A DNA stretch of 64,000 nt, from assembly GCA_938031175.1 (NCBI GenBank), contig CALHGZ010000005.1:186001-250000 (forward strand), in the 5' to 3' direction. The first letter of the stretch is position 1, and each line of letters opens with the position of its first letter. Origin of the DNA: Candidatus Kapaibacterium sp. GTDB lineage: Bacteria > Bacteroidota > Ignavibacteria > Kapaibacteriales > UBA2268. This document shows, piece after piece, positions 11,128 through 36,222 of the stretch. The notes under the pieces were generated by a model. The model was not told where the DNA came from. It did not search any database and saw only the letters and a list, made by a program, of their open reading frames with translations. Made by a program: the position numbers and the translations under genes.

Positions 11128-13593
11128 ATGACCTATAAAAATGATGAATTCATCGAAAATCGATGGTTTAATGACATAATTGGAATGATTGTATCATTAG
11201 TCATTCCTACAGCTTTATTGTTTATTTCTCAAAATGAACTTTTAGCTCAAACTGAAAATGTTGGTATTGGTACAACAAATCCAAGTAATTCAGCTGTTCT
11301 TGAGCTAAGTATTGATGCTTTATCTGTACCACGTGGATTTTTAGTTCCACGTATGACTACAACGCAAAGAAACAATATACCAGGTCCCATACCGCCTGGA
11401 CTTCTAATTTATAATACAGATAATAATAGATTTGAATTTTACAGTGGTTCAACTTGGCTTGCTCTGATAGCAACAGGATTTACGTTTGCTGATATATCAA
11501 GTGGTACTAATACTACTGCTGCAATGGTTGTGGGTGATGGCTCATCTCTATCGCCTTCAGGAAGTGGATATATAACTGCTAATCGTTTTGTTGGAAGTGG
11601 TTCTACAACAGATAATGTTGATTTAGCTACTAATGAAGTAAGTGGAGTTCTTCCTATTACAAAAGGAGGTACAAATATTAATAGTATTCCTGCTAACGGA
11701 CAATTGCTTATTGGTGACGGTTCTGGTTACACATTAAATACATTAACAGCAGGTTCTCTAATTAATATCAGTAATACAGCGGGTTCGATAACAATTTCAT
11801 CTACTGGTGAAAGTCCTTTAACTTTCGATAATGGTATAACTCGTAGTTCTAATAATGTATCCCTCGGTGGTGCACTCAATCAGAACACTTCTATTGATAT
11901 TGGTTCGAATAACTTAACTTTAAGCGTTAGTGGTAACTCAGGGGATGTTATAATAGGTAAATTTACAAGTGCTGGTTTTGTAAAATCCAATGCTTTGGGT
12001 GTACTTTCTACTGGTTCGATCACAGCAAATGAATTACCCCCGCTTCAAAGCTCCCAGATATGGATTGGTAATGCTTCAAACCAGGCGACAGCACAGACTA
12101 TTACTGGTGCTGGTACCATATCAAATACTGGAGTTTTAAGTATTAACGATAATGCAATTGGTGGAAATCATATTAATCTAACAGGTAATCAGAACGGAGA
12201 TTTGATGTATTACGATGGTACCGACTGGATTAGACTGCCAGCAGGAACTAATGGACAAGTGCTTAAAACAAGTGCAGGAATTCCGGCTTGGGGTACAGAT
12301 GAAAATACAACATACACAGCAGGAGATGGACTAGTCCTTAATTCAAATGAATTCTCAGTAAATTTCGCTGGTAGCGGTATAGCAACAACTGTCTCACGAA
12401 GCGATCATACTCATTCAATAACATCAAATATTTCTGCAACTCCTTGGAGGCTTTTCTATTCTGATGGCTCAGGAGCAATTAATGAATTAGCCCTTGGTAA
12501 TAATGGGACAGTCCTCCAATCAACTGGTAATTCTTCTGCACCTACTTGGGCTAATTTAAGTCTACCCACAGGTTCCGATGGTCAGACCCTACGGAATAAT
12601 AATGGTACTTGGGAAGCTACTAATATATTATTTAATAATGGCACTAATATTGGCCTCGGTGGAATTACTTCCCCAGTTTCAACTCTACATCAGGATGTTG
12701 GCACAGCAGAAGCAACATTTCATAAATTCACTGCTGGTACAACAACTGGACAAACGTCGAATGACGGATTTGATATTGGGATTGATGCTTCAGGAAATGC
12801 CATAATTATGCAAAGAGAAAATCTTCCTATGATGTTTTATACAAATAATACTGAAAGGATAAGGATATTAAGCGATGGTAGGATAGGGTTTGGTGTTACT
12901 TCACCGAGTTCAACTTATACATACGAATTCGACGGCAGTGTCAAAATCGAAGGTGATCTGGAAGTTACCGGAGAAATAGATCCTGTTGCACTTATTTTAA
13001 TACCTCAAAATACTACACCTGCATCAGTTAGAGGAAAAATTTATTTTGATAATAATGATAATACTTTAAAAGTCTATGATGGTACTCAGTGGGTAGATAT
13101 TTCTGGTACTACAGGCTCTTTACCAAGCGGTTCATCAGGTCAAACTTTAAGGCATAACGGAACTGAGTGGGTAGCTAATGATGTAATCTACAATGATGGT
13201 TCAAATATTGGAATAGGGACAACATCTCCTGAAGCAAAACTTGATGTTAATGGAACATTTGCTTTAAGAGCTACTTCAATGACCCTTAACAGTGGTTTCC
13301 GTAATAATGTTGACGTCGGAGATTATTCTTTTGTCAGAATCACACCTTCAGGTGGCGAAGTCATTATCACCGGTATTTCGGGTGGTTATGATGGTAGAAT
13401 TCTAATATTAAGAAATACAAGTAGTACAAATTTATTAAGTTTATCAAATGAAAACAATAACTCAAATGCTGAAAATAGAATTTTAATTGGCAGAGCTAAT
13501 TCTAACATAAGTGTACTGAGTGCTGGTTATATGTTAATATATGATGGTACTTCACAAAGGTGGATTTTACTTGGTCGTTCACCAGATGAATAA
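11128..13593 (+). CDS. Secreted fibre-like repeat protein
   Basis: The protein has 821 residues. An N-terminal hydrophobic segment (about 18-41, ending in LLAQ) is a long signal peptide. The body is rich in Gly, Ser, Thr and Asn and carries the NVGIGTTNPSNSAVLE motif near the N-terminus, NIGLGGITSP around 510 and NIGIGTTSPEAKLDVNG around 690. It also has repeated 'VPRMTT', 'GLLIYNTDNNRFEFYSGSTW' and 'KVYDGTQWVDISG' segments. These resemble tail-fibre-like stalks of Bacteroidota surface proteins and phages. There is no T9SS tail or enzymatic domain; adhesion or a structural role is an inference. A strong GGAGG (11116-11120) lies 7 bases before the ATG. Its end overlaps the next gene by 8 bases. 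Confidence 0.72.
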   Translation: MTYKNDEFIENRWFNDIIGMIVSLVIPTALLFISQNELLAQTENVGIGTTNPSNSAVLELSIDALSVPRGFLVPRMTTTQRNNIPGPIPPGLLIYNTDNNRFEFYSGSTWLALIATGFTFADISSGTNTTAAMVVGDGSSLSPSGSGYITANRFVGSGSTTDNVDLATNEVSGVLPITKGGTNINSIPANGQLLIGDGSGYTLNTLTAGSLINISNTAGSITISSTGESPLTFDNGITRSSNNVSLGGALNQNTSIDIGSNNLTLSVSGNSGDVIIGKFTSAGFVKSNALGVLSTGSITANELPPLQSSQIWIGNASNQATAQTITGAGTISNTGVLSINDNAIGGNHINLTGNQNGDLMYYDGTDWIRLPAGTNGQVLKTSAGIPAWGTDENTTYTAGDGLVLNSNEFSVNFAGSGIATTVSRSDHTHSITSNISATPWRLFYSDGSGAINELALGNNGTVLQSTGNSSAPTWANLSLPTGSDGQTLRNNNGTWEATNILFNNGTNIGLGGITSPVSTLHQDVGTAEATFHKFTAGTTTGQTSNDGFDIGIDASGNAIIMQRENLPMMFYTNNTERIRILSDGRIGFGVTSPSSTYTYEFDGSVKIEGDLEVTGEIDPVALILIPQNTTPASVRGKIYFDNNDNTLKVYDGTQWVDISGTTGSLPSGSSGQTLRHNGTEWVANDVIYNDGSNIGIGTTSPEAKLDVNGTFALRATSMTLNSGFRNNVDVGDYSFVRITPSGGEVIITGISGGYDGRILILRNTSSTNLLSLSNENNNSNAENRILIGRANSNISVLSAGYMLIYDGTSQRWILLGRSPDE

Positions 13594-16500
13594 AAATCTT
13601 ATGATTTATATCAAAATAAAATTAATACACTTATTTAAAATCCTAAGTAAATACAAACTTGGGTTTTATATCTTTTTGTGCATTTTTTCGCTTTTAAGTT
13701 ATTCAGGTTTTTCCCAAGGTCTTATTAATATACAAGAGAATGCTGAAATTAGGATAAATCAAGATGCAACAATTAGAATTAACGGTTCTATTCGTATTGC
13801 AAATGGGGCACAAATTACGCAGAATCAATATGGATTAATTGAGATTACAGGAAACTGGCAAAATAATGGTGGTTTATTTAATCCAGGTGTTGGTACTGTA
13901 ACTTTTATTGGGACTACTTCTTCAAATATATTTGGTTCAGGTTCGACAAGATTTTATGATTTAATCATAAACAAAACAGCTGGTTCTCCTAATAATCAAG
14001 TAATACAAACACAAAATTTGACTATTGATAATGATTTAATTGTTACAGCAGGACAATATATAACCGGCACAGGAACATTTGATCTGACAATCAATGGAGA
14101 TATTGAAAATAATGGAACAGTTAATTTAAATAATAATCCTAATTATGTCAATGTTACTTTTGTAGGTGATGCTAATTCAAATATAACAGGAACAGGAACT
14201 ACTACTAATTTTAATGAAATTACAGTAAACAAATCAGCAAAAGATTTAGAAGTCGTTATAAATTCGTCAGCATTTACAGCTGCAAGTGGATTTTTAACCT
14301 TAATTCGGGGTACTTTTCATATTGCCGGTAATGTTTCTTATCCAGCCAATACGGTATTCAAATCATCTGCTGGTAATTATAATATACCTTCAGAATCAGC
14401 GTTCTGGCTTGATAATCCAAATTTTACCGTAAGTGGACAAAATGCAACAGCAAATTTAAGTGGTCGTTTAAGAATAAGTTCAGGCACTTTTAATGTTGGC
14501 ACTGGCACCAATCAAAATCATTTATTATACAGTAGTGGTTCTGAATTCATACTTGAGAATGGTACAGTAAATATAAACACTCGATTTTCCCGAGGTGCAT
14601 CTGATATTGCTACTATTGATTATCAGCAGTCCGGTGGACAAATGAATATTGGTGTGGGTGCATCAAGTAATGCAAACAATCGAGGAATGTTTGATATTGG
14701 TGCTTCTTCGTCCACATTTAATTGGACTGGAGGAGTAATCGAGATGAGGCGAAATTCTCAGAATACCGATGCTAATGGCGGTGACTTTTTCATCGCAGCA
14801 AGTAATGGTAATGTAAATAATGGTACACTTCTGCGATATTCCCAATCCGGAACCTCTCAAGTTCATAGAATCAATACAATTCAACCAATAGGTGAATTAT
14901 TTATCAATGGAACAAACAATCCAATTGTTCAGTTACTCAATAATGATTTAACTGTACTTGGTGATATAACTATAAACGGTTCTGTACCGGGCAGATTAGT
15001 TGCAGGAGGGTTTAATATCAACATTGGTGGGAATTGGATACACAATGGAGCTAATTTGTTCTCAGCTGGTACCGGCCGTGTTATTTTTGACGGCAACACT
15101 GACCAAAGCATCGGTGGATCTAACAGCACAACTTTTAACAATATCTCGATTAATAAAAGTGGTGGGAAAGTCAATCTAAATATAGCTACAACTATTAATG
15201 GCGATATAAGATTAATATCATCAACAGCAAAAATAGATATAGGACCATATAATCTGACACTTGGTACGAATAATATTATATACTCAGATGATGGTGTTAA
15301 TAGTGTAATAAACCCGGGTCTTGGCTTTTCTGAGGACAAATGCATACTATATTCGGCAATGGATGAAACCGGTGGTTCGATAATTCGAAACGTAGCATCG
15401 GGAACGATTTCTTCATCAACAATATTCAATTTCCCATTAGGTACGAAAGATCCAACAGGTACCTTTGATGTTTACACACCAGCCAGAATAGTTATTAATG
15501 AAGCTACTGTAGGTGCAAATGCCAGTTTAACAGTTAAGCCTGTACCCCAGGAACATCCTAATGTTAAAACTAACAATATGTCATTAACAAAATATTGGAA
15601 GATACAAAAAAATAACATTACCTTGGGAACAAATCGAGCTGATCTAAGATTTTGGTACGTTGAAGAGGAAGTTAATGGAACTGAAGGGAATTATCGTGTA
15701 TTGAGATATAATACTCCGAACTGGCTCATTGATCCCGGTTTATCGGCATTGGTTAGTTTTAATACTAATGAAATTATTTGCGAACGACCTGCTGACAATC
15801 AATTTGATGGTGATTGGACTGCCGGTGAAGAACAAGCCGCTCGTGCAAAGTATTATAGTATAGCAAACGGTAATTATAATGATCCTAATACATGGTCAAA
15901 AATTTCTTTTGGAGGACCACCATCAAATACAGCACCAAATGACCCTTCAGATAATATTTACATTGGAGACGGGAAAACAGTTACTGTTACATCAAATCCA
16001 ACAGCGGCAAATTTGATAGAAGTAAAGAGCGACGGTGCTTTAATAATGAATAATTATGTATTTATCGGTGATACTTTGAGAGTTCTTGGAGGTGGAAGAT
16101 TATCGATTGGACATGCATCAGGTTTAGTATTAGCACCTACAAATCAAGGAAATGTTCAGACAACTGTACGTCAATTTGATACTACTGCAATATATATATA
16201 TAACGGAACAGTTAATCAGGTAACCGGAAATGCTTTACCCCATAGAGTTCAGTCTCTGATTTGTAATAAACCTCCAAATACAACACTAACTATAACCAAT
16301 AACTTAATAATTGGAGATTCACTAGTTATTGTCAACGGAATTGTTGATGATAACGGAAGATTCCTCGATGGCGAAACAAGTGGTAGAACATTTATTATGT
16401 TTGGGGGTGAGATAATTTTACGCAAAAATTTCCCCAAAAATTATGATCCACCAACATTTAATGCTGGCAGAGTCAATTTTACTGGTACTACAAGTATTAG

Positions 16501-19500
16501 AATACCATCATCAGGTTCCACACCTGGTGTATTGCAATACAATGATTTAAATATTGGCGGTAATCGTGCTTATGGAGATATTATTTTCGAACCGGATGGT
16601 GAAATTCGGATTCAAGGCAATTTTACAATAAATGCACTCGATTTTACTGTTTTCAATATTGGTAATTCCAGATTGAGAACAGATGGTTCGACTATAGTTT
16701 TCAATGGTTCAGGTAATCAAAATATTCCAAGAAATACACTAAGATCTGGTAGTGGTGATGATTATACACTTTATTATCATAATCTGGTAATATCCGGTGG
16801 TGGAGTAAAAAGCCTGATTGATGGCAATCATAGAATATATAATGAGTTAAGACTTGAATCAGCTACTCTAAATTCAAACACTAGTGATATTGAATTAAGA
16901 GGTAATTGGATAAATACAGGTGGAAATTTTAATCCTGGAACGAGAACCGTAACTTTCAACATAACAACTGCAGCCACGACAAAATATGTAAAAGCTCGAA
17001 ATGTTCCTTTCTATAATTTAAGTATTACCGGTCTCGGAACTTTGAAACATCAGGATGATCCCGGTGACGAATTAATAGTAAACGGGAATTGGACAAATAC
17101 AGCAACATTTGATCCCAACGGTAGTAAAGTGCGCTTCTCTGGTACAGCACTCCAGATAATTACAAACACAAATAGCGAGAATTTTTATGATTTAGTTGTC
17201 AACAATCCTGCGAATATTAGATTAGCTGCAAATACAAATATTACCGTTCAAAATGAGCTTACCTTCGAATCAGGAATATTAGATGCCAGAACGAATAATA
17301 GGGTCGTTGCAGTCAATGGTAGTGTTATAAGGACAGGCATAGGTCATGTTGATGGGAATTTAAGAATTAATATACCCTCAGGATCCACAAATGAAATTGT
17401 TTTTCACCTTGGGCGTGGTGCAAATTATCGTCCTGCTCGATTGACTTTTGATGGCACTGGGGGTAACCCTGGCTATTTAAATATTATTGATAATGCAAGG
17501 ACTGTGAATCTAACTGGTTCACAACTGAACACAGCACAAAATGTTGAAGAACAATGGGAAATAACAATACCATCAGGTAGTAACTTCACACTTGGTAACC
17601 GAAGATTTAATTTGATATTGCAATTTTTAAATCCAGAAGATATACGAGGTGGAGCAAATCCAAATAATTTCGTCACGAGGGTATGGAATGGAACTTCATG
17701 GTCAACAACAACAACGGGTAACCGCACAAGTAATACAACACAATCTTTATCCAATACAGTCTTTGGTTTTTATGTGATTGGCCCACCTTCGATGCCTACC
17801 TACTATAGTATATCCAATGGTAATTGGAATGACCCAAATACCTGGTCGACTGCTGGTTATGGTGGTGCGCCTGCAACAAGTGCCCCTTCAACAAATTCTT
17901 ATGTTTACATTGGGGATGGTAAAACAGTTACCTTAAATATTGCAAATTATATAACTGCCGTTGGCGACTCTATTATCGTCGAAACGGCTGGTCCGTCTGG
18001 GCAACCTGGACATTTGATTTTACCACCAAATAATATTATTTCCGGCAATGGCTCATTTGCATTAAGAAATGGTGGCGTTTTAAGTATTGGTTCTCCTAAT
18101 GGAATAACGACAACTGGAGCTACTGGGAACATTAGAACAGCAAACAGGAATTATAATGAAAATAATCATAACAATGGCAACTTTATATATAATGGCACTG
18201 CTAATCAAAATACAGGTGATGGATTGCCATCAGTAGTTGCTACTTTGACAATCAATAATAGTGGTAATACTGTTACACTTTCATCAGGAAGTGGCATAAC
18301 AATTACTGATAGTTTGAACATAATTGCCGGAACATTTGATGTATCTACAGCAAATCGCTCTATTGAGCTTCGAGGAAATTGGCGAAACAGCGGTACATTC
18401 AATCCCAGAAATGGAACGGTTACCATTAATGGAAATGGTTTGCAATTAATTACTAATTCAACCAATGAGACATTCTACAATCTCACAATAAATAAATCTT
18501 CTAACTATGTAAAATTAGAACCATCAACAAATGTTACAATTACAAATACACTAAACTTACAGTCAGGAATAATTGACGGAAGAAGTAATTCCGTAGCTTT
18601 GATTATTCCATCTGGTGCAACTTTGAATCGTACATCGGGGCATATAAATGGTGAGTTACAAAGATACATCCCAATCAATTCATCTAATACAGTGTTTCAT
18701 ATTGGTACTGAATCCGATTATACTCCAGCTACTTTGTCAATTACTGGTACCGGTGGTACAGCAGGTTTAGTGAGTATGATAACTTATGCAGAAGACCATC
18801 CTCAAATTGTTACAAGTGGGCTGGATTTGACTAAAAATGTTCAAAGATATTGGAGTCTATTTTTACCTACCGGATCATCATTTAATCTTGATAATCCCTC
18901 AAGGACTTACAACATTACAGTTCAATTTCTAAATCCTGATGATATTAGAGGTGGTGCCAATACATCCAATTTTGTAATTAGAAGATACGATGGTAATTGG
19001 CAAGCAACTACAGCCGGAACCCGTACCGCAACAACAACTGAAGCTACAAATATAGCTGTTTTAGGTGATGACTTTGTAGTTGGCGAACTTGGTGCTTCCA
19101 GAGTATTTTATACACGGGCAGATGGGAACTGGAATAATAATACCGTCTGGTCAGAAATAGCATATGGAGGACCACCTTCAGCTAACTGGCCCGATGACCC
19201 GGCTGATGTTGTATTTATTGGCAATGGCAATACAATTACACTTGCTGGTAATAGAACCGTTGCCAGTGTTACTGTTGAAGACGTAAATGGTATGGGAACT
19301 TTGAATTTAGGTAATTATATCTTAAGTGGTAATCAATTTATTCTAAAAAGCGGAGGTAAATTAATTATTGGCTCGGCCGATGGTATCACAGCTTCTGGAC
19401 CGTCAGGAAACATACAAACAAATATTAGAAATTATAACCATAATTCCCATAATAATGGTCATTTTGAATATGTTGGTGATGCTCAAAATACTGGTACAGG

Positions 19501-26395: not shown

Positions 26396-26532
26396 TTATA
26401 ATTGGGTAGTTATACTTATTTCATATAATGAAGTTGGTGATTATTTTAGACAAACTTTAGAAAATGTATGAAAATAAACAAATTAATCAATATTAAATTA
26501 CTATTGTCCAAATAACCTTGAGGAGGTATTTT

Positions 26533-29046
26533 GTGAAAACTGAACGTTTTACAACCGCATTACTTGTTTCAGCAATATTAGCCTTAATATTGCTTGGGAC
26601 AGAGCTTTTTGCTCAAAATTTGACGAATGAAACCTCTGGCAATATTAATAATGCCGGAACAATCCGATTTCGTCAAGATAACGCACAATTTATCAATAAT
26701 CGCCCTAATCCTGTGAGTGGGGGATTTATTGTGAACACAGGCACAATTGAATTTCGTGGATTGGTTGCGAATCCCGTTTTTGTTGGGAGCAATCCAGTTG
26801 GTGTATCAGGGCAGAGGATCGGTGGAACAGTTGAATACAGTGCAGCTGCTGGTAACATTACAGTTACTGGTACAGGAGCCGCAACTTATTATACTAATCT
26901 CGTCCTTTCTGGAGGCTCTTTGAAATCTGTTCCAGATGCTGTTTATGTTTATGGAAATTATAATCCATCTACGTCTGGTAATAGAACTTATGCTGGAACA
27001 TTTTACTATGACAGAGCAGAAAATGACGACCAGCTTATATATCCCGAAAATGGTGCAACGGCTGGGACAAATGCATACAACAATCTAACATTTCTGGGTA
27101 ATGGAACCAAGACAATTGCTTATGTTGCAGGTCCCGGAGGTGAAGTATATGTAGATAATGATTTCACTGTCTCAGATGCTGCAGTCCAAACCCGGGTTTA
27201 TGATGATATGGTTGTAGGTCGAAGTGGTGGTAGCGGTTCAACTGTAGCAGGTCCTATGATTGTTGGCGATGGAACTAATAATGGTAGCTTTAGCATGAGA
27301 AATGCAAATATTACCTATTCTTCCACAGTTGATGTTGCAACAGGTGTATTTAATATAGAAGGAACTGGTAATGGTGTATTTAATGGCGTTGTTACTATCA
27401 ATACAGGTAGTATGAACTTGACTTCTACAGTTGCTAATACAGGAAATGCAACTTATAATGCTAATGTAAACATTAATAACAATGGTACTTTATTAGTAGC
27501 AGGAGAGGGAGATGCTACATTTGAGCAAACTGTAGCAGTTGCTGCTGGTGGTACACTTCAAAGCAATAATAATGTTGCCGGTATCATTGATGTTAATGGT
27601 ACCTTAACACTTGCCAATGCAGCAAATGCCACTTTATCGCTCGGAAACAATACATATATGTATATCTCTGGTGTATTTAATAATAATTTTGATGCCCGTA
27701 CAAATATGACATTTGGAAATGGTTCACTTGTAACATACGATGGCCAGAACAATCAGCAAATTATGACAACTGTTGCTGGTAATAATAATGATTATGCCGG
27801 TCTAGTCATTCGTGGTGCCGCAGGTACAAGAACACCAGTAAATAATGCTACTTCACCAAATATAAACATACGAGAATCATTTGAGCTTGGTACTGATGGA
27901 GATATCAGGCTTGATTTGTATGCATCAAACCCGAATGCTTATGTAAACATAACAGGTAATGGTCCTGCTACGTATTTAGGTTTATCAGAAGTTTATGGTA
28001 AATTTAGAAGAACATCCTTTACAGCAGCAAATGGCTTGGTATTTAATAATGCTGAAACAGTCCTTGATTTTGCAACGGCGCCTGCCAGCTTCTTCCAGTT
28101 GGATATACGTGGCGGTTTAGTACCTGATTATACAAAGATTGCAACTCCAAACGCTGTAACTACTGATGTTCAACGAAGAATTACTGTTGAAACAAATGCA
28201 GCTCCTAACCAGGGTACAGTTTCGAGAATGCGCATTGCATATTTGCCAAACGAATACAATCCAAGTGGTCCTGATCGCGAAGATCGTCTCAGGTTATTAG
28301 AAGCTTATGGTAATGCAAGTGTTCGTGGTGATAAGATCACAACCGGTGTACCAATCACAGTACGTAATTATGACAATACAGGTTGGGAATATCTCGAAAT
28401 TTCCGGTGTCAACAATCCACCATCACAGCATTTGATAGTTATGACTGATAATTACGGAACCCCCGGACAAATCTGGGAAGTCTCTCGTCAATCTGACATT
28501 GTACTTACTGATGAAGTTGGCTTGATGATCTCAATTCGTCACGGTCGTTGGTCAGATCCCGAGACATGGGATGAAGGAAGAAAGCCTATATCTGAAGACA
28601 ACTGTATAATAAGACACGTTGTTTATACAGGTTATGATGGTGGTGCATCTCAAGTATTCGGAGCACGTCCTTGGCCAGACAATGAAGAAGCTACACCTGG
28701 TTTAATTCAAAGCAATGGTGGATATGTTTTGGCTAATAGTGTCTTAATTGAACCAGAAAATATGCCAATTACAGCCGATGACAGAGCATTACTCATAGGT
28801 AATCAAGATAATGCTCCTGGTGTAGTGCTTGTCATTGGTACACAATCTGGATTGGGCAATGGTATAAGAAATGATAATACTGAAGCTCTTAGTGGATGGA
28901 CTCCAAACTGGACAAATACCACAGGATTACAAGGTATCTATGTATTACCACCAAATACATATACACCAGTTATTAGATTTTCACAGATTACGAACTCCGG
29001 TTCAATAACTAACAGTACCGGAAGTACAATTGAAATCGGTGATTAA
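26533..29046 (+). CDS. Secreted beta-solenoid protein, relative of the giant protein
   Basis: The protein has 837 residues. The GTG at 26533 is the start because GAGGAGGT (26520-26527) sits 5 bases before it; an upstream in-frame TTG at 26518 precedes that Shine-Dalgarno sequence. A signal peptide (MKTERFTTALLVSAILALIL...LFAQ) is followed by NLTNETSGNINNAGTIRF and a solenoid of Asn/Gly/Thr-rich strands (about 40-400). A more globular part follows, with a G8-like unit around residue 670 (HGRWSDPETWDEGRKP), and the C-terminus is NSTGSTIEIGD. The end resembles that of the giant protein (NNEGVIEIGN). No T9SS tail is visible. It is likely surface exposed and structural (inference). Confidence 0.78.
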   Translation: MKTERFTTALLVSAILALILLGTELFAQNLTNETSGNINNAGTIRFRQDNAQFINNRPNPVSGGFIVNTGTIEFRGLVANPVFVGSNPVGVSGQRIGGTVEYSAAAGNITVTGTGAATYYTNLVLSGGSLKSVPDAVYVYGNYNPSTSGNRTYAGTFYYDRAENDDQLIYPENGATAGTNAYNNLTFLGNGTKTIAYVAGPGGEVYVDNDFTVSDAAVQTRVYDDMVVGRSGGSGSTVAGPMIVGDGTNNGSFSMRNANITYSSTVDVATGVFNIEGTGNGVFNGVVTINTGSMNLTSTVANTGNATYNANVNINNNGTLLVAGEGDATFEQTVAVAAGGTLQSNNNVAGIIDVNGTLTLANAANATLSLGNNTYMYISGVFNNNFDARTNMTFGNGSLVTYDGQNNQQIMTTVAGNNNDYAGLVIRGAAGTRTPVNNATSPNINIRESFELGTDGDIRLDLYASNPNAYVNITGNGPATYLGLSEVYGKFRRTSFTAANGLVFNNAETVLDFATAPASFFQLDIRGGLVPDYTKIATPNAVTTDVQRRITVETNAAPNQGTVSRMRIAYLPNEYNPSGPDREDRLRLLEAYGNASVRGDKITTGVPITVRNYDNTGWEYLEISGVNNPPSQHLIVMTDNYGTPGQIWEVSRQSDIVLTDEVGLMISIRHGRWSDPETWDEGRKPISEDNCIIRHVVYTGYDGGASQVFGARPWPDNEEATPGLIQSNGGYVLANSVLIEPENMPITADDRALLIGNQDNAPGVVLVIGTQSGLGNGIRNDNTEALSGWTPNWTNTTGLQGIYVLPPNTYTPVIRFSQITNSGSITNSTGSTIEIGD

Positions 29047-29070: not shown

Positions 29071-29110
29071 CCAAAAGGCGGAGATTATTCCGCCTTTTGG
29101 TAGTTTTGAT
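29071..29110 (+). terminator. Rho-independent terminator
   Basis: A perfect 12-bp stem CCAAAAGGCGGA (29071-29082) / TCCGCCTTTTGG (29089-29100) with a 6-base loop. The tail TAGTTTTG is only moderately T-rich. Confidence 0.8.
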
Positions 29111-29282: not shown

Positions 29283-31334
29283 TTGAAGTACAAAATAACG
29301 ATATTGATATTCATTTTTATTACAACGAATTGTCTGTTTTCCCAGACTCTTTTGAATAATAATAAAGCTTCCGGGAAAATAGTCAACGAAGGAACAATTC
29401 GTATTCGCAGTGCAGGGAGTATATTGGGTATGCCCGATACGATAGGAGGCAGAGTCGAATTTATTGCAAATAGACCAGAACATCAACAAATCATTCCAAA
29501 TGTCGTTTATTATCAATTATTTGTAACAGGCGAAACACCAAAATATGTAGATTCTCTTTGGAATGCACCTGGATCTAATCCTTTGGCTACCCTTGATTCT
29601 TTCGTTGTTATCCGCTCAATTCTAAAAGTAGATACTGTGGAAGTAAATGCTAAATCAACAGTCATGAATCAGCAGGCACAGGTTGTTGGCAAAAGAGATG
29701 TTCGATTGAATGGAGACTCTTTATCACAAAATATATTTGGGGATGGTTATTTTACAAATCTTAACATTGATAACTCTTTTGGTGTAGACGTTGTCAATGG
29801 TGGAGGGTTCACTGTTACAAAGAAACTTGAGTTAACTAAAGGCGAATTTCGTAACGACCAACAGAATAACTTCAATTTAGCTGACTCAGTTGTTATCATT
29901 CGTCACGTTGGAAGTTCGCTTGCAAGTGAGCCAAATTTCGGCAAATACATAACAGTGAGATATGTCGGCAATGGTTCAATAATTTCGACCGGGGAGTTGC
30001 CCTCGGATTCAACAAAATTAGCTATTTTAAAGAATGAGACATCTGATGGATTAACTCTAACCAAGTCTGTTACAGTCAATAAAGAATTATATTTAAAATC
30101 ACCAATAATTACAGAACCTGATACAACTGATATTCACATTTTAACACTAACCGCTGAGCAAGATCCACAATTCGATTCCCCCAACGCAGAAATTATAGGC
30201 AGTTTCAGGCGGACTTTTTTAAGGCAAAATGGAACACGTACTATTTTTAATAATCCATATACTTGGATATCTTTTGATTCACCTGATTTAGCGGGTAGAA
30301 TTAATGAAATGACATTCAGGGTATTGCCTAAGACTACGCCACCATTTCCAAAGGGTGATATGAAAGTCCAACGAACTATCAGTATTAGAGCTCTTGACAT
30401 CGATTATGAACCGGTTGTAAATGGCTTCACAATGCAAATGGGATACGGATGGAGATATTCAAGTAATTTAGAAAAAGATGAAACGAATAATTTGCCAGTT
30501 GCGGACTTAATATTGCAAAGATGGAGTGGGAGCGATTGGTTTGATATTCGCTCATCGGTACCTCCTCAGGTCAATATTGATGAAGAATGGGGCTATGGAT
30601 ATGCTACAGAAGTCAATATGTTGGGAGATTATGCGATTGGAATGCCTGGGGGCTTACTTCTAACATTAAACTCGAAAGTTTTGCTCGAAGGACCATATAG
30701 ATTCGGAAGTATGGCTATGGATTTGAGAATAAAGAATTTAATACCTAATTCACCACCTGACATTTATCCTTATAATTTAGATCCGAATCGACCATTTATA
30801 TATGTAAAAACGATACCTGATTCAATAGTTGATTGGATTTTACTCGAATTCAGACCAAACTTTACATCGAGTGATAGATATTATAGGACTGTATTTTTGC
30901 ACGTTGATGGAAGAATAGTAGATTTGGATGGACAATCACCTGTGCTTCTTGCAAAAGGCGGAATCGATTCTGGTGAATATTTTATTGCTGTCAGGCACCG
31001 TAATCACCTGGCAATAATAACCGAGAATAGAATAAGCATTTATCCAGAAACTATGCAACAAATAGTGGATTTCACTAATCCAAGTAATATTATGGGGAGA
31101 ACAAGTGCTTTAAGACCTGTAGGGTATGATGCAGAGGGTAAATTGCTTTGGGCTATGTTCACAGGGGATACAAATGGAGATGGTAAAATTAATCAAAACG
31201 ATTTTGTTAATATCTGGGAAGCAAGAGATTTGGAAGGATATTTAAATGCAGATTTAAATATGAGCGGATTAATTAATACAAGAGACTTTAACTTTGGTTG
31301 GAATAATCGTGGTAAGGAGACATTAGTTCCATAA
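29283..31334 (+). CDS. Secreted protein with C-terminal dockerin-like domain
   Basis: The protein has 683 residues and starts at TTG (MKYKITILIFIFITTNCLFSQ signal peptide) with no Shine-Dalgarno sequence. The mature N-terminus (NNNKASGKIVNEGTIRIRS) shares the G.I.N.GTI.I motif with the upstream solenoid protein. Beta-rich regions of no recognised family follow. The last ~57 residues form a dockerin-type-I-like pair of calcium loops: D-T-N-G-D-G-K-I-N-Q-N-D, then D-L-N-M-S-G-L-I-N-T-R-D. Dockerins bind cohesin domains in a calcium-dependent way, so this protein may be docked onto another surface protein, possibly the product of the next gene (inference). Confidence 0.78.
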   Translation: MKYKITILIFIFITTNCLFSQTLLNNNKASGKIVNEGTIRIRSAGSILGMPDTIGGRVEFIANRPEHQQIIPNVVYYQLFVTGETPKYVDSLWNAPGSNPLATLDSFVVIRSILKVDTVEVNAKSTVMNQQAQVVGKRDVRLNGDSLSQNIFGDGYFTNLNIDNSFGVDVVNGGGFTVTKKLELTKGEFRNDQQNNFNLADSVVIIRHVGSSLASEPNFGKYITVRYVGNGSIISTGELPSDSTKLAILKNETSDGLTLTKSVTVNKELYLKSPIITEPDTTDIHILTLTAEQDPQFDSPNAEIIGSFRRTFLRQNGTRTIFNNPYTWISFDSPDLAGRINEMTFRVLPKTTPPFPKGDMKVQRTISIRALDIDYEPVVNGFTMQMGYGWRYSSNLEKDETNNLPVADLILQRWSGSDWFDIRSSVPPQVNIDEEWGYGYATEVNMLGDYAIGMPGGLLLTLNSKVLLEGPYRFGSMAMDLRIKNLIPNSPPDIYPYNLDPNRPFIYVKTIPDSIVDWILLEFRPNFTSSDRYYRTVFLHVDGRIVDLDGQSPVLLAKGGIDSGEYFIAVRHRNHLAIITENRISIYPETMQQIVDFTNPSNIMGRTSALRPVGYDAEGKLLWAMFTGDTNGDGKINQNDFVNIWEARDLEGYLNADLNMSGLINTRDFNFGWNNRGKETLVP

Positions 31335-31440: not shown

Positions 31441-31475
31441 TAAAATTTAATTTTAAATTAATTGAGCTTTCATTT

Positions 31476-32780
31476 ATGTTCATCAAAATAAATATATTAA
31501 TTATAATTTCAATAATAATTTTTCCTATTTCCATTTTCACACAAAATATAGATACTCTTGCAATTGTAAGGATTGAAAATATATTATTAGTTCAACCTGA
31601 TACATTACAATTCGATATAAGGATTTATCGCAATTCGGATAGATGGTCAAAATTGGCAAATGGAACATTTCAGTTAACAATAGGCGATGGAACAACTTCT
31701 GTTTACGAAGAAAATGCTAAGATAGAATATATATCAGGATCAAGCCAACTTAGAGTTTACCCTATAACAGGACAATTAACCAAAGATAGCTATTTTATCT
31801 CGCCCTCAATAATTAGAGATAGAGTTAGCATTAGTGTACTCGGTCCGGAGTTGTTCCAGGATGCTAATTTTATACCCAAAGACACTGGTTTGCTAATTGG
31901 AACATTCCAGGTAATTGAAAAAAGTGGTAATACATTGCCGTTAAATATAAATTGGCTTTACCCTCAATTTTATTATCAAGCTTGTGCTTACAAACTAGAA
32001 AATGACTCGATTGTACCACCATTTATTACTTGGAATTTAGCTAATGATAATATAGAAATGGAAGATATTCATCGTACAACAACTGTTCGATATGAAGCAG
32101 ACATAGCACCGGATCCATACGTCAAACTGAAATATTTTTATGCCCGTTATGAAGGGCAAAGAAAAGTTGGTCTCTATTGGGAAACAGAGACTGAATTTCT
32201 GAATCGGGGATTTATTCTCCGCCGTGGTTATTTACCATTTGGCTCCCGTGATACCGCTGGTGTTGAATTTAAGGATTTTGTAGCCAGCTACGAGGGGGGT
32301 GAGGGAAAGCCACCAGTTCCTGAAATGATAGGTTTGGGGTCATCCCGATTAGGTAAACCATATAGCTACAAACACGATACAGTACCTTTTAGAGGTGAAA
32401 CCTATTGCTATGCACTTTATTACAAAGATTTTTACGGTGCTGAACATTATTTAGCTTCTTCCTGTGTAAAAATTCCGAACTCTGTTATCGTCTATGCCCA
32501 AGCTAATCCCAACCCAATGACTACATCTACTACTATCGAGTACCAACTCGATGATGATGTGCTGTTGGAATGCAATGTTTACGATTTATTAGGTAGGAAA
32601 GTTAAAAATCTCATTGATCTGCAAGAAATAAAACTGGGAAAGCACGAAATTGTATTCGAAACGCCAAGAGAGCATTTAGCATCACAAAGTATGTATGAAG
32701 TAATATTCATTGCCCATCCAATTGATGATCCAGCTGTTGACATTTCGAAAGCAGTGGTAAAAGTTCAACTTATAAGATAA
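31476..32780 (+). CDS. T9SS-exported beta-sandwich protein, possibly cohesin-like
   Basis: The protein has 434 residues. A signal peptide (MFIKINILIIISIIIFPISIFTQ) is followed by an N-terminal beta-sandwich (about 25-200). Its strands LQFDIRIYRNSDRWSKLANG and LLIGTFQVIEKSG, followed by LPLNINW, recall cohesin-like folds; this is an inference and not a firm family match. A fibronectin-like region follows (YEGQRKVGLYWETETEF). A type-A T9SS C-terminal domain spans about 338-434 (YAQANPNPMTTSTTIEYQL, YDLLGRKVKNL). It ends 3 bases before the WD40 gene, so the two share a transcript. Lying next to a dockerin-like protein makes a docking-partner role worth testing. Confidence 0.75.
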   Translation: MFIKINILIIISIIIFPISIFTQNIDTLAIVRIENILLVQPDTLQFDIRIYRNSDRWSKLANGTFQLTIGDGTTSVYEENAKIEYISGSSQLRVYPITGQLTKDSYFISPSIIRDRVSISVLGPELFQDANFIPKDTGLLIGTFQVIEKSGNTLPLNINWLYPQFYYQACAYKLENDSIVPPFITWNLANDNIEMEDIHRTTTVRYEADIAPDPYVKLKYFYARYEGQRKVGLYWETETEFLNRGFILRRGYLPFGSRDTAGVEFKDFVASYEGGEGKPPVPEMIGLGSSRLGKPYSYKHDTVPFRGETYCYALYYKDFYGAEHYLASSCVKIPNSVIVYAQANPNPMTTSTTIEYQLDDDVLLECNVYDLLGRKVKNLIDLQEIKLGKHEIVFETPREHLASQSMYEVIFIAHPIDDPAVDISKAVVKVQLIR

Positions 32781-32783
32781 AAT

Positions 32784-34730
32784 ATGGAAAAATTTTTTTA
32801 CATATTAAAGTATGACAAAATTGTAATATTTATCTTTCTGATAATTATTACCTCTAGCCATGCAATTTCACAAATCAGAATATTAAAACCAAGTTCTATT
32901 GATACTATTTTTTATGGAAAAGAATTTGAAATTGTCTGGACTGGTAATGATAATAACACAGTAGATATTTTTTATTCAACTGATTTTGGTGCATCTTGGG
33001 AGCTAATTGCTGAAAAGGTTTCAGGTAACCGATACATATGGCAAATTCCTTATTTGATGATAAGTTCTGTAATTATTAGAGTTACAAGTTCAATTATTCT
33101 TAAACCATATATAATATGGGAAATAAAGCAAGCTCATAATGCGGAAATACGTTCTGTTTCAATTTCAGCTGACAGTAAATTTATTTTATCAGCTAGCAGG
33201 GATGGCACTGTAAAATTATGGGCAATTGACAGCCGACAACTTCTTGACTCAATAATGATTTCAACTTCAAGAAATGTTTGGGATGCAAAATTCTATGGTA
33301 GCGAGGATACTATTGTAATTGCAGCTGATAATAGGATTGTTATCTGGGACAGGAGAAATAAAAGCGTTTTTGATTTATTGCCTATGCGTTTTAATGATAT
33401 TGTTCGATGCTTGGCAGTAAATTATAATAAAGGGCTAATAGCAATTGGTACAAGTACAAATGATAAAAAAAATTATGTATATAATTGGGATTCTTTGATA
33501 CTTGAATTTGCCAATCCCGATAATTGGGAAAGCTACTCTCTGGATATATCAGAAAATGGTAAATATCTTATTAATGCAACTTATGGCGGTGCTATTTACT
33601 ATACGGATATATTTGGGAACAAAAATGAATTTACTCTTACTGGTCATGGAATTAATGGTGCTGAACTTGCAATATGGTCGGTAAAGTTTTCGACTGATTC
33701 CAAAATAGCTATTTCCGGTGGTGTTGATAAAACGGTTAGATTGTGGGATTTGAATGAACGTAAAGAGATAAAAAAATTTACTTCCCACTCCGGACACGTA
33801 AGAACTGTGGACATTTCTTCTGATGGGCGTTTGGCTTTGTCTGGTTCATTAGATGACACTTTAAGACAATATTTTTTACCAACCTTGGGAGAAATTGATG
33901 TTGCAGTAAGTCATAATGGGGATATTTTGTCTGCATCTTATTCAATAACTGCTGATTCAATTGTAACTACCGGTCGGGATAGCTCAATAAAATTATGGAA
34001 AAATTTTAGAATGAGCGAATCTTTCGACGAAGTTACTTGTAAAACACGGTACAAGGAATATATTTATATACCACATTTATTTGCTTATATTGGTGAGATT
34101 GTTGAAATACCCTTGATATATTCAGGAATTTCTGAAAATCCGAGCTTATTGCAATATACTTTTAATGCGGTTGCTGAAATTGAAATGCCAAATAGACTAT
34201 TAAATGTAATTAATCCAGCAAATTATACAAAGTCAAGTCAGCGAAAAGATACAATCATCATCCAAATGAATAACATAAACTTCTTTATGGATACTCTTGG
34301 AAAATTTCTGGCAGAAACTTTATTAGGCGACAAAAATACTGAGGAGATCAGGATTCTAAATTTTGAAATTGAAAATGATAGTTTATTTGTAATTGAAACT
34401 GATGATGGTTCTATTAACTTATTTGAATATTGTGTTGGTAACTCGCAGCGTTCTATTCAATTTCAAAGCAATAATAAAGCATTGGTAATAATTAATGAAA
34501 TAATAAACGATTATTTAGATTTAGAATTATCTTTAATTGAAGATGGTGATTATATACTAAAATTATTTGATATGAAGGGCATATTAGTTGCCAATGAAAA
34601 TATTAAAAATTTAAAGGCAGGTAAATATTACTATTCAATCAATATAAATAGTTTACCATCTGGTACTTATCAAGTTGTTTTGAAAAGCCCATCATCATTT
34701 TTTAGTCGTAAATTTCTCCTAATCCGCTAA
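32784..34730 (+). CDS. T9SS-exported WD40 beta-propeller protein
   Basis: The protein has 648 residues. A signal peptide (about 1-29, ending HAISQ) is followed by an Ig-like domain (ILKPSSIDTIFYGKEFEIVW). A full set of seven WD40 blades spans about 115-410 (for example RSVSISADSKFILSASRDGT then VKLWAIDS; GGVDKTVRLWDLNER; TGRDSSIKLWKNF). A beta-rich region and a T9SS type-A C-terminal domain (about 570-648: LELSLIEDGDYILKLFDMKG, PSGTYQVVLKS) complete it. WD40 propellers are protein-interaction platforms that usually act in the cytoplasm; here the signal peptide and T9SS tail place one at the cell surface. Confidence 0.85.
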   Translation: MEKFFYILKYDKIVIFIFLIIITSSHAISQIRILKPSSIDTIFYGKEFEIVWTGNDNNTVDIFYSTDFGASWELIAEKVSGNRYIWQIPYLMISSVIIRVTSSIILKPYIIWEIKQAHNAEIRSVSISADSKFILSASRDGTVKLWAIDSRQLLDSIMISTSRNVWDAKFYGSEDTIVIAADNRIVIWDRRNKSVFDLLPMRFNDIVRCLAVNYNKGLIAIGTSTNDKKNYVYNWDSLILEFANPDNWESYSLDISENGKYLINATYGGAIYYTDIFGNKNEFTLTGHGINGAELAIWSVKFSTDSKIAISGGVDKTVRLWDLNERKEIKKFTSHSGHVRTVDISSDGRLALSGSLDDTLRQYFLPTLGEIDVAVSHNGDILSASYSITADSIVTTGRDSSIKLWKNFRMSESFDEVTCKTRYKEYIYIPHLFAYIGEIVEIPLIYSGISENPSLLQYTFNAVAEIEMPNRLLNVINPANYTKSSQRKDTIIIQMNNINFFMDTLGKFLAETLLGDKNTEEIRILNFEIENDSLFVIETDDGSINLFEYCVGNSQRSIQFQSNNKALVIINEIINDYLDLELSLIEDGDYILKLFDMKGILVANENIKNLKAGKYYYSININSLPSGTYQVVLKSPSSFFSRKFLLIR

Positions 34731-34791
34731 AAGATTTTTCAAAAAATTAATAAAATTACCGAAATTTTTTTATAAATTAGTTATAAGTTGC

Positions 34792-34814
34792 TAACTTTGA
34801 TTAGGTTTAAACCT
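34792..34814 (+). promoter_or_regulatory. Possible -7 element and palindromic operator
   Basis: TAACTTTG (34792-34799) matches TAnnTTTG, and a perfect 12-base palindrome AGGTTTAAACCT (34803-34814) sits where transcription would begin, 14 bases before the ATG of the OmpA-domain gene. The palindrome could be a repressor site. Confidence 0.35.
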
Positions 34815-34827
34815 GCAAATGACTTAA

Positions 34828-36222
34828 ATGATAAAAAAAATCAAAATAATTGTTCCTTTACTTTTAATGATATCAATATATAACATTTTTTCTCAAAATC
34901 CTTCGGGCAGATTTGTTGATAAAGTATTATTACCCAATTTGGATACATTAAAACTTAACCGAACTTATAGTGAATGGTGGTATGGCATAACAGGGGGCGT
35001 GAACTTGAATACCTACTATAGCCAGCTTCAAGTGCCATATAATCCCGGACGTGTAGTTGACCAGTCAAATAAATTATTTGATTATCCGAAAGGTTTAGGA
35101 GCAGGTTTGTTTGCCGGATTAAGGGGGGAATGGCTTCCTTTTGGTAGTAGTTGGGGTGTAATGATTGATCTTTATCTTTGGGATTATCGTCACGCCATAG
35201 CTCAAACAGATATAATAACCGACACAATGTATATTATCAACCCTGAGCGTGAAAAATTTCGATTTCAAACCAAAAACAATTTCACATATCTAACTTTATC
35301 ACCATCAGTTCGCTTTAGCTTACCAATTGAACATTTGTACTTGTTTGGTGGATTTGATTTTGAATTAATAATTGCCCAAAATGCGGAGAAAATTACAAAA
35401 TATGAGCATACAGGTAGTATTGATCAGGTATTTAATTTAAATTACAATGAGGTTAAATCACGAGTTGGTTTTCATATTGGCAGCGGATATGACATCTTTT
35501 TAGCTGATTTTCAGCATAAATGGCGTATTTTCTTTTGTCCATTTATTTCTTTTAATGCTGGGACCGTGGTTTTAAGCGATTTTGGCTCCAGTTGGAATAC
35601 TTTTATGCTTAGAGTAGGTTTTACTGTTAAGCTTGAACGTGACTATATAGAAGAGGAAATTTTATATTACAATCCGGAATACACTCCTGGACCAGTATTT
35701 GCCGATGCGATTACTATTGAAGATAGAATTGAATTTCCCGGGTTCGAATTCAATCCATTGCCTGCTAATCAATTGGCTTATATCGAAAAACCTCAAATTA
35801 TAGTCGAAATAAGCGAAAAATTGCAAATAACACCTAAAAAAGTTGAAGAACCAAAAGTAGCTAAAACAGATTTAATTGATCCTAAAAAAGTAGAAATATT
35901 TAATTATGAAACGACATCGGATGTTACACTCGATCAAAAGGCTATGAACTACCTGGATAAATTAGCAGAATTTTTAAAGGCTAATCCAAATTTCGAAGTA
36001 AGGATAGTAGGGCATTCAGATAATGTTGGTACCTATGAGCAAAATCTCAGGAGGTCAAATCTAAGAGTACAAAATGTAATCAATTATTTGGTTAAAAAGG
36101 GAATTCCGAGAAGCAGAATGTTAGCACGCGCAAGAGGGGCAGTAGAACCTATAGCAAGCAATACTACTGATGCAGGTAGGCGATTGAACAGAAGAGTAGA
36201 AATTTCTATCATAGAAAAATAA
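34828..36222 (+). CDS. Outer-membrane barrel protein with OmpA C-terminal domain
   Basis: The protein has 464 residues. A signal peptide (MIKKIKIIVPLLLMISIYNIFSQ) is followed by an N-terminal beta-barrel (about 50-275: WYGITGGVNLNTYYSQ, GAGLFAGLRGEWLPFG, WNTFMLRVGFTVKL). A linker rich in Lys, Glu and Pro follows, then an OmpA peptidoglycan-binding domain (about 350-464: VRIVGHSDNVGTYEQNLRRS, RGAVEPIASN, GRRLNRRVEISI). It anchors the outer membrane to the cell wall and, by position, may hold the surface structures encoded upstream (inference). The receiver gene follows 36 bases later. Confidence 0.87.
   Translation: MIKKIKIIVPLLLMISIYNIFSQNPSGRFVDKVLLPNLDTLKLNRTYSEWWYGITGGVNLNTYYSQLQVPYNPGRVVDQSNKLFDYPKGLGAGLFAGLRGEWLPFGSSWGVMIDLYLWDYRHAIAQTDIITDTMYIINPEREKFRFQTKNNFTYLTLSPSVRFSLPIEHLYLFGGFDFELIIAQNAEKITKYEHTGSIDQVFNLNYNEVKSRVGFHIGSGYDIFLADFQHKWRIFFCPFISFNAGTVVLSDFGSSWNTFMLRVGFTVKLERDYIEEEILYYNPEYTPGPVFADAITIEDRIEFPGFEFNPLPANQLAYIEKPQIIVEISEKLQITPKKVEEPKVAKTDLIDPKKVEIFNYETTSDVTLDQKAMNYLDKLAEFLKANPNFEVRIVGHSDNVGTYEQNLRRSNLRVQNVINYLVKKGIPRSRMLARARGAVEPIASNTTDAGRRLNRRVEISIIEK

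Follow-up and report, generated by a model that had tools for sequence, protein, structure and literature searches.

End-to-end stacking of β-solenoids is an accepted route to building filaments, as in curli, designed β-rolls and bactofilins, which are built from small subunits of one or a few similar kinds. Cellulosomes, assembled through type I and type II cohesins, are defined by dockerin-bearing enzymes and a scaffoldin with multiple cohesins. A study of MAGs from the Cloacimonadota describes, for 'Ca. Stygibacter', a scaffoldin with tandem cohesins and a surface-attachment C-terminal domain, together with dockerin-bearing degradative enzymes (PMC8542988). Type B CTD substrates of the T9SS are described together with PorP/SprF and with PorE, a peptidoglycan-binding outer-membrane protein (PMC10202324).

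Here we analysed a 64,000-nucleotide stretch of DNA from Candidatus Kapaibacterium sp. (the window), in which open reading frame calls place seven consecutive plus-strand genes at 11128-36222, encoding FIB (821 residues), GIANT, MID (842), DOC (683), COH (434), WD (648) and OMP (464; Table 1). GIANT as called has 4262 residues from a start at 13541, its first ATG overlapping FIB; starting at 13601 gives 4,242 residues. All seven proteins have a hydrophobic, signal-like N-terminus ending in (A/S/T)-Q when read by eye, and Pfam at E up to 1 finds no enzyme domain in any of them, bearing out an earlier note on this DNA that had described seven consecutive signal-bearing genes of this kind. At the same threshold, FIB and MID have no match, GIANT has one G8 domain, WD is a WD40 protein, DOC has weak EF-hand/Dockerin_1 matches, COH a weak T9SS tail, and OMP an OmpA domain and one sub-threshold, chance-level match; the NCBIfam scan covered the six proteins other than GIANT. 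A terminator consensus scan gave 8 sites (mean 6.4 in shuffles), and since the site with the longest stem separates MID from DOC, the cluster may not be one operon; we consider a single operon doubtful. A tRNA-Cys call at 16459-16535 lies within the GIANT frame and was taken as a false positive.

Table 1 Features of the cluster and its neighbours, in window positions
Feature	Positions	Strand	Description and basis
LuxR-type response regulator	10187..10900	+	receiver + GerE; Pfam
FIB	11128..13593	+	821-aa fibre-like secreted protein; variable distal component
GIANT	13601..26329	+	~4,240-aa solenoid-like protein; signal-like N-terminus, G8 domain; solenoid fold suggested by sequence
GIANT C-terminal acidic rung	26273..26326	+	..NNEGVIEIGN; protein end
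MID	26518..29046	+	842-aa, solenoid-like (putative fold); rungs: basic N-terminal GTIRFR, acidic C-terminal TIEIGD (protein end)
Terminator-like hairpin	29071..29100	+	between MID and DOC; 13-pair stem, one G-T
DOC	29283..31334	+	683-aa; begins with a solenoid-like part (basic rung GTIRIR), followed by the X-module and a dockerin at the C-terminus
X-module of DOC	30648..31151	+	residues 456-623; alignment A4; confidently modelled in read-through model
Dockerin of DOC	31152..31331	+	residues 624-683; two Ca-loop-like motifs; ends WNNRG..LVP
COH	31476..32780	+	434 residues; cohesin fold + FN3 + T9SS C-terminal domain; predicted folds
Cohesin-fold domain of COH	31548..32105	+	residues 25-210; predicted model vs 5nrk_A
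T9SS C-terminal domain of COH	32481..32777	+	residues 336-434; PorU-like predicted fold
WD	32784..34730	+	secreted WD40 propeller with T9SS-like tail, accessory; Pfam/NCBIfam
OMP	34828..36222	+	~300-residue N-terminal region (putative barrel) + OmpA peptidoglycan-binding domain; Pfam
OmpA domain of OMP	35923-36192		
REC	36259..36648	+	single-domain receiver; Pfam
CHASE-PAS-HisKA sensor	36678..38873	+	degenerate ATPase region; Pfam, alignment inspection

With cellulosome-type assemblies the locus shares the cohesin fold of COH, in the form of a single anchoring cohesin, and with cellulosomal X-dockerin dyads it shares an extra module followed by a two-loop dockerin tail in DOC, a likeness of domain arrangement. 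Unlike cellulosomes, it shows no enzyme domain in the Pfam scans of the seven proteins and has one cohesin-fold domain in COH in place of a many-cohesin scaffoldin; its cargo is solenoid-like, its anchor is a T9SS tail, and COH gives no match to Pfam Cohesin (PF00963) at E up to 1; neither dockerin-bearing enzymes nor a multi-cohesin scaffoldin was found in the cluster. The 'Ca. Stygibacter' system and this locus, each deduced from MAGs, both pair an anchor bearing a cohesin and a surface-attachment C-terminal domain with dockerin-bearing partners, but here the anchor has one cohesin, the proteins are solenoid-like, their gene order is conserved, and the locus includes an OmpA protein as well as a sensor (PMC8542988). 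Type B CTD substrates are likewise surface proteins encoded next to an outer-membrane partner, but the scans matched neither a type B tail in GIANT, MID or DOC nor a PorP/SprF family among the cluster proteins (Pfam, and NCBIfam for six; PMC10202324). In contrast to uncapped β-solenoid and β-roll polymers, different large subunits would here stack in a fixed order. Our literature search, conducted mostly at the level of abstracts, found no published description of such a filament or gene cluster, in agreement with the earlier note, which had known of no named system of this composition.

Our preferred reading, which we hold tentatively and at slightly below even confidence, is that the locus encodes an ordered, surface-anchored GIANT-MID-DOC filament docked via an X-dockerin on the T9SS-exported cohesin COH. 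GIANT, MID and DOC would be β-solenoids stacking end to end in the order of their genes, GIANT first and DOC last, each junction bringing an acidic edge rung at the C-terminus of one protein against a basic edge rung at the N-terminus of its successor. The X-module and dockerin of DOC would, with calcium probably taking part, plug into the cohesin-fold domain of COH, which in turn would be exported through SprA by virtue of its T9SS tail and fixed on the outer face, so that the tail-less solenoids (680-4,240 residues) could be carried or captured through the DOC-COH coupling. OMP, combining a putative barrel with an OmpA domain, would perhaps tie the filament base to peptidoglycan, WD would be an accessory surface propeller, and FIB or GIANT may form an exchangeable distal part.

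The C-terminus of DOC in the window carries two dockerin calcium-loop motifs, GDTNGDGKINQND and DLNMSGLINTRD, within ~60 residues; at least six related loci (L050, L057, L058, L059, L095 and L107) have a degenerate first loop. Searching PDB sequences with a DOC profile gave 15 matches at E up to 1, 14 of which are dockerin chains aligned at profile positions 160-217, including 2mte, 1daq and other chains that are named by their enzyme and that we take to be dockerins; the best E was 0.0032, and two matches alone fell below E 0.05. Dockerin_1 matches 16 of 40 DOC members at E up to 0.1, and DOC from the window by itself reaches 12.8 and 16.1 bits against a Pfam cut-off of 22.9. The dockerin-ended protein of the earlier note has a dockerin sequence signature; what had been missed is the key relation, the cohesin-fold protein encoded next to it.

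This neighbour, COH, is predicted to begin with a cohesin fold. Two predicted models, made from overlapping alignments, match 5nrk_A with Z 10.4 (rmsd 2.9, 127 aligned) and Z 10.1, and 44 of the 50 entries listed for the second model, the first 37 included, are cohesins (counting 4fl4 and 3kcp, whose titles do not say so but which we take to be cohesins). In a Foldseek list ranked by E-value, FN3 proteins and PorU come first. A COH profile also found nothing among PDB sequences (E up to 1), so it is the predicted fold that underlies the cohesin call, and because sequence divergence cannot here be told from non-membership, we write "cohesin fold" and not "Pfam Cohesin member". The C-terminal part of COH, as modelled, superposes on PorU (6za2_A) with Z 9.7, rmsd 2.7, 91 aligned residues and 19% identity; its Pfam score (15.9 of 27 bits) is below the cut-off, as is its NCBIfam score. 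The genome encodes SprA (TIGR04189, 885 bits, over the cut-off), and the predicted T9SS-type tail fold together with SprA supports a surface location. Por_Secre_tail has 105 matches genome-wide at E up to 0.001, none of them in GIANT, MID or DOC (Pfam, E up to 1); NCBIfam likewise finds no T9SS tail in MID and DOC, and no TPS domain or TpsB family of two-partner secretion was found in GIANT, MID or OMP (Pfam, E up to 1).

A more ordinary explanation is that the cluster is a conserved neighbourhood of distinct, co-regulated surface proteins, namely T9SS adhesins plus an OmpA protein. The cohesin-like domain would then be a generic spacer ahead of the tail, and each solenoid would act as an adhesin by itself. 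Seven other T9SS-tailed open frames in the genome have Pfam Cohesin matches, one above the cut-off, so dockerin binding does not follow from the presence of such a domain; T9SS tails are abundant in the genome, the giant, fibre and WD genes vary between relatives, and a read-through AlphaFold model of X-dockerin and COH (pTM 0.48; dockerin poorly modelled, pLDDT < 50) does not support docking. Against this stand the adjacency of a dockerin-type tail and a cohesin-fold protein, the conserved, oppositely charged solenoid ends, the fusion of MID and DOC, and the finding that none of 60 sampled genomes from the same order as the source genome has a full COH without DOC. We judge this explanation unlikely.

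In these 60 genomes, full-length COH is found in 52 and DOC in 53; the two occur together in 52, DOC alone in 1 and neither in 7, and in two of these last (G033 and G050) all X-dockerin matches fall on other proteins. COH was scored as present only if the match covered the cohesin part, and DOC if the match belonged to a DOC gene, even one cut by a contig end (for example in G001, G021 and G028). Raw tallies at E up to 1e-6 were 60/60 for COH (alignment A2), because the FN3-tail part matches many T9SS proteins, and 55/60 for DOC (alignment A1). DOC and COH are same-strand neighbours in 49/60 genomes, with a median gap of 35 bp, DOC-COH-OMP is collinear in 40/60 and MID-DOC-COH-OMP in 27/60; MID has no match in 16/60. 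The earlier note's proposal that at least four of the seven families would be conserved in order holds at this level. A DOC-anchored scan restricted to the best 80 of 341 matches agrees: COH is the next gene after DOC in 59 of 72 loci with room, and MID lies directly upstream of or overlaps DOC in 39/56 (27/56 without overlapping frames).

The proteins of the proposed stack also have distinctive ends. GIANT and MID finish at the extreme C-terminus in a mostly acidic rung, and MID and DOC start with a mostly basic one. The GIANT rung pattern occurs in 19 of 20 GIANT members, with E at the charged position in 16. At N-terminal rungs this position is K/R in 32/40 matched MID and 35/64 matched DOC sequences, compared with 54/722 internal matches to the same pattern and 2/72 to a stricter internal one; at C-terminal rungs it is E in 33/53 matched sequences against 7/173 internal matches. 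These counts are drawn from related sequences, with a few matches falling in signal peptides, and the patterns miss 7/47 MID N-ends, 16/80 DOC rows, 1/20 GIANT and 14/48 MID C-ends. In some relatives (loci L129 and L130; genomes G041, G049 and G056) MID and DOC are one fused protein.

The same ends could be read as export or sorting signals and not joints, in which case the X-dockerin tail would be another kind of sorting domain, for the T9SS or a different route, and a second new signal would lie in the EIG rung at the C-terminus. Both occupy the very end of proteins that differ widely in length, a position typical of sorting signals, and these proteins have signal-like N-termini and no recognised tail. 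This reading leaves unexplained why MID and DOC begin with matching basic rungs, and the MID end lies internally in the MID-DOC fusion. Furthermore, the DNA pattern IEIGx-stop has four matches in this genome, namely the GIANT end, the MID end and the ends of two short frames (41 and 83 codons, stop included; reversed-pattern controls gave 3 and 0), as against the 105 T9SS-tail matches, so we rejected the terminal rung as a general tag in this genome. We regard sorting signals as quite improbable.

Returning to the filament, the X-dockerin is also found as the modular tail of other giant proteins, lying 0-26 residues from the C-terminus in 19 of 20 hand-picked loci (the other, L150, had no ORF match and was scored as a miss). 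Of 45 genes with a C-terminal X-dockerin, from loci lying mostly outside the order, 17 are directly followed by a gene that runs in the same direction and encodes a T9SS-tail motif and 28 are not, another X-dockerin gene directly follows 12 of the 45, and the N-terminal profile of the partners outside the order is weakly similar to COH (hhalign probability 8%, P 0.004). Across 296 genomes sampled from the phylum, X-dockerin occurs in 43 and a COH-type cohesin in 20. The wider proposition, that uncapped β-solenoids form a heteropolymer ordered by charged rungs and plugged by X-dockerin into a T9SS-exported cohesin, carrying tail-less giants to the surface, and that this X-dockerin/T9SS-cohesin pair is a general Bacteroidota display scheme, strikes us as somewhat unlikely. 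If the pair binds, it would explain how tail-less giant proteins stay on the surface and equip T9SS bacteria with a modular coupling for surface display, and the charge-coded solenoid stack would be directly testable; if true, the scheme would give a function to several large-protein families left unnamed by the family libraries used.

The locus has a constant core of MID-DOC-COH-OMP, often with REC/CHASE, and the distal fibre and giant genes and the WD40 gene are variable. Among the best 80 of 341 matches in the DOC-anchored scan, a giant or fibre gene lies within 6 kb upstream in 26/44 loci and WD within 4.5 kb of DOC in 24/65. The T9SS-like tail of WD is sub-threshold (16.3 bits against a cut-off of 23; Pfam/NCBIfam). 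FIB-type homologues lie upstream of MID/DOC in the gene strings of relatives; PHROGs matches FIB exclusively to families of unknown function, and a phage tail fibre is at most a candidate identity for it.

The earlier note had seen in the cluster a surface layer or adhesion apparatus. The T9SS-tail fold of COH and the presence of SprA support a surface location, which may be that of an adhesin, a coat or something different; four of the families keep their order, but the fibre, giant and WD40 parts of that picture proved variable. A two-dimensional layer tied to peptidoglycan by the OmpA-domain protein would fit the very large secreted proteins and the presence of OMP within 4.5 kb of DOC in 51/65 loci (best 80 of 341 matches); against it, no S-layer family was matched in the seven cluster proteins by Pfam or in six by NCBIfam, and a hetero-stack with one dockerin end would suggest threads over a lattice. 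We consider such a layer highly unlikely.

Downstream of OMP, the receiver and sensor genes named in the earlier note are both there, but the "kinase" lacks ATP-binding motifs: by inspection, the N and G boxes are absent in 35/35 aligned CHASE sequences, and the window protein has no HATPase match in Pfam. Its H-box histidine is kept in 23/35, and from its sequence this CHASE-PAS-HisKA protein is probably a pseudokinase. Together with REC and the LuxR-type regulator, it may sense and control the filament system; several relatives (for example L080, L091, L092, L094, L097 and L144) have a homologue of this regulator upstream of the cluster.

Our analysis of open reading frames, N-terminal segments and Pfam matches bears out the proposal of an earlier note that seven consecutive forward-strand genes form a cluster at 11128-36222, a real and conserved surface locus. 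All seven encoded proteins begin with a hydrophobic segment ending in (A/S/T)-Q, as read by eye from the sequence, and the genome from which the stretch derives (18 contigs, 2.69 Mb; bases 186001-250000 of contig 5) encodes SprA. In several relatives (L091, L092, L094, L097 and L144), NAD synthase and LuxR genes lie ahead of FIB-type clusters, as they do upstream of the cluster here.

Features of the window, with Pfam Cohesin matches in its genome
Feature	Position	Strand	Length (aa)	Character
NAD synthase and LuxR regulator genes	8237-10900			upstream of the cluster
FIB		+	821	fibre-like; first of seven; no family matched in Pfam scan
GIANT		+	4262 as called	solenoid-like; Pfam G8
tRNA-Cys (ARAGORN)	16459-16535			odd anticodon; within GIANT frame, probably a false positive
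MID		+	842	solenoid-like; no family matched in Pfam scan
Terminator-like hairpin	29071-29100			13-pair stem, between MID and DOC
DOC		+	683	Pfam EF-hand/Dockerin_1, weak
COH		+	434	Pfam T9SS tail, weak
WD		+	648	Pfam WD40
OMP		+	464	putative barrel; Pfam OmpA
REC			129	receiver; downstream of OMP
CHASE	36678-38873		731	after REC; CHASE, PAS and HisKA domains kept (Pfam)
Pfam Cohesin matches	G000:C8:103090, C7:1554, C10:117541, C2:132318, C2:151791, C15:54903, C9:227637			elsewhere in the window's genome (G000)

The locus is conserved. We searched 60 genomes of the order Kapaibacteriales, the window's own included, for OMP and MID, and found the two near each other in many of them. Stretches from 20 relatives, picked for holding both genes, share the single order MID-DOC-COH-(WD)-OMP-(REC)-CHASE, with some genes missing or cut off. 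Profiles of DOC (A1) and COH (A2) detected DOC in 53 of the 60 genomes and full-length COH in 52; 52 genomes hold both, one holds DOC alone and seven hold neither; in two of these seven (G033 and G050), matches to the X-module plus dockerin unit (X-dockerin) sit on other proteins. DOC and COH are same-strand neighbours in 49/60 genomes, separated by a median of 35 bp; the remaining genomes with both comprise one with 822 bp between the genes and two with the genes on different contigs. MID was matched in 44/60 and, under gap limits of 600 bp, 3.5 kb and 2.5 kb, DOC-COH-OMP is collinear in 40/60 and MID-DOC-COH-OMP in 27/60.

A separate A1 scan of named genome records returned 341 matches, from which the best 80 loci were used, 44 of them titled Kapabacteria/Kapaibacterium or Ignavibacteria. 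Within these best 80, COH is the gene right after DOC in 59 of the 72 loci with room; OMP lies within 4.5 kb of DOC in 51 of 65 loci and WD in 24 of 65; and CHASE is found no more than 8 kb away in 33 of 56, REC in 27 of 56. On the other side, MID overlaps or lies just upstream of DOC in 39 of 56 loci, and in 26 of 44 the 6 kb upstream contain GIANT or FIB. In the stretch examined from several relatives, FIB-type proteins and a small solenoid-like frame (128-168 aa) stand ahead of MID in place of GIANT. Together with this replacement, the DOC-anchored neighbour counts show that the base of the locus is constant and its distal part exchangeable. At one locus (L117), homologues of FIB and GIANT are found downstream of WD rather than upstream of MID.

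The C-terminus of DOC is, by its sequence, an X-module followed by a dockerin. Its last 60 residues hold two calcium-loop-like motifs. Pfam Dockerin_1 matched 8 of 21 DOC sequences with a limit of E 1, and 16 of the 40 members of a broader set of X-dockerins with a limit of E 0.1. Searched against the PDB, the X-dockerin profile matched 15 sequences at E up to 1, of which 14 are dockerin chains and one is a gingipain; the dockerin chains align inside profile positions 160-217 (best E 0.0032, second 0.014). Of 20 loci hand-picked from the match list, 19 have the unit at the C-terminus or at most 26 residues away from it. The window's genome contains one X-dockerin match, as well as one separate Pfam Dockerin_1 match in a different frame with a T9SS tail, and in some relatives the unit is repeated on other, often very large, proteins (13 matches in G044, 10 in G050). 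In DOC of six loci (L050, L057, L058, L059, L095 and L107), the first calcium loop is swapped for other sequence and the second is kept.

Structure prediction makes COH a cohesin-fold T9SS protein. In an AlphaFold model from the A2 alignment (pLDDT 84, pTM 0.71), predicted residues 25-210 resemble cohesins (5nrk_A, Z 10.4, rmsd 2.9, 127 aligned; also 4fl4, 3kcp, 5nrm, 5g5d, 3l8q, 1tyj and 5lxv), residues 214-336 resemble FN3 (2ibb, Z 9.3) and residues 336-434 resemble the PorU tail (6za2_A, Z 9.7, rmsd 2.7, 91 aligned, 19% identity). Foldseek ranking of the model by E-value placed FN3 proteins and PorU on top. When the prediction was repeated with an overlapping alignment, cohesins took the first 37 places and 44 of the 50 entries listed, the other six being GH20 and CBM. 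The COH sequence had no match to Pfam Cohesin, and its profile had none among PDB sequences. With E values up to 1 allowed, Pfam Cohesin matched seven places across the window's genome, and one of these matches exceeds the cut-off (E 4.6e-6). All seven lie in T9SS-tailed frames, six within 250 bp of the tail and the seventh at about 790 bp, and cohesin-like domains may be commonly present on T9SS cargo.

A sample of 296 genomes from the phylum was searched with a profile threshold of E 1e-5. The profile of the COH cohesin matched 20 genomes, 19 belonging to the order and one to the class, and that of the X-dockerin matched 43, of which 19 are inside the order and 24 outside it; among the sample's 25 order genomes, 19 have both and six neither. 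We also inspected 29 X-dockerin loci, mostly outside the order (L129, L130 and L133 are perhaps inside), in which 45 C-terminal X-dockerin genes have at least 1.2 kb downstream. The next gene is co-directional with a T9SS-tail motif for 17 of the 45 and is another X-dockerin gene for 12. An X-dockerin gene with a T9SS-tail gene behind it is also present in Adhaeribacter soli (L136), a relative in culture. Fifteen T9SS-tail partners have an N-terminal region that, by eye, is possibly a cohesin. Profile comparison of 13 such partners with COH showed a weak likeness (probability 8%, P 0.004), which makes a general X-dockerin/T9SS-cohesin pairing a lead. A Melioribacteraceae MAG has tandem X-dockerin-tailed genes at L134 and L138, both on one contig, with T9SS-tail genes interspersed in the L138 run; an Ignavibacteriae MAG has a further tandem run at L146.

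Most GIANT and MID proteins, putative solenoids, finish at their very last residues with the repeat, or rung, N.G.I.N.G.IEIG. This C-end pattern was matched in 19/20 GIANT and 34/48 MID sequences. The charged position is E in 16 GIANT and 17 MID ends and Q in one GIANT and seven MID ends; two ends, counting both families, have K or R there. N-end rungs mostly carry K or R: 32/40 matched for MID (47 members), 35/64 matched among 80 DOC rows that take in X-dockerin relatives and some spurious matches, and 30/49 matched among the 54 DOC members scoring over 250. As controls, the N-end pattern at internal sites of GIANT and MID has K/R in 54/722, and the C-end pattern at internal sites has E in 7/173; all rung counts are drawn from related sequences and are given without a probability. 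A single open frame, 1509-1549 codons long, contains both MID and DOC in G041, G049 and G056, all of family f7, and at loci L129 and L130, possibly in part from the same genomes. At the two loci, residue 816 or 815 is the last one covered by the MID profile, and the residue after it is the first covered by the DOC profile. Such a fusion reads as the joint predicted by a stacking model, in covalent form.

In our proposed mechanism, GIANT, MID and DOC would form an ordered filament, the DOC dockerin would dock it onto COH, and COH would be exported by the T9SS and fixed outside; OMP may tie the filament base to peptidoglycan. No T9SS tail is recognised on GIANT or MID, and the idea that a tailed partner carries tail-less proteins over the outer membrane is the mechanism's weakest step. 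A read-through AlphaFold model of X-dockerin and COH reached pTM 0.48, with the dockerin under pLDDT 50, and neither supports nor refutes docking.

The individual parts belong to known kinds. A Cloacimonadota scaffoldin is inferred to have cohesins and a surface-attachment C-terminal domain, with dockerin enzymes (PMC8542988). Among the giant-protein systems considered, the nearest is that of type B T9SS substrates and their partners PorP/SprF and PorE (PMC10202324). The cluster is apparently undescribed in the accessible literature on cohesin/dockerin in type IX secretion and on Kapabacteria type IX secretion, a body that leaves most subscription journals uncovered. If borne out, the combination would be new, above all its charge-coded solenoid joints.

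Downstream of the cluster, a receiver followed by a sensor kinase had been proposed. The receiver REC and the CHASE, PAS and HisKA domains stand, but on inspection the N and G boxes are absent from the CHASE ATPase region in 35/35 aligned sequences. The H-box histidine is retained in 23 of these 35 and lost in 12, and CHASE is best regarded as a probable pseudokinase, a conserved sensor near a lone receiver. Within the cluster, the terminator-like hairpin suggests at least two transcription units, and possibly sets the ratio of filament to base protein.
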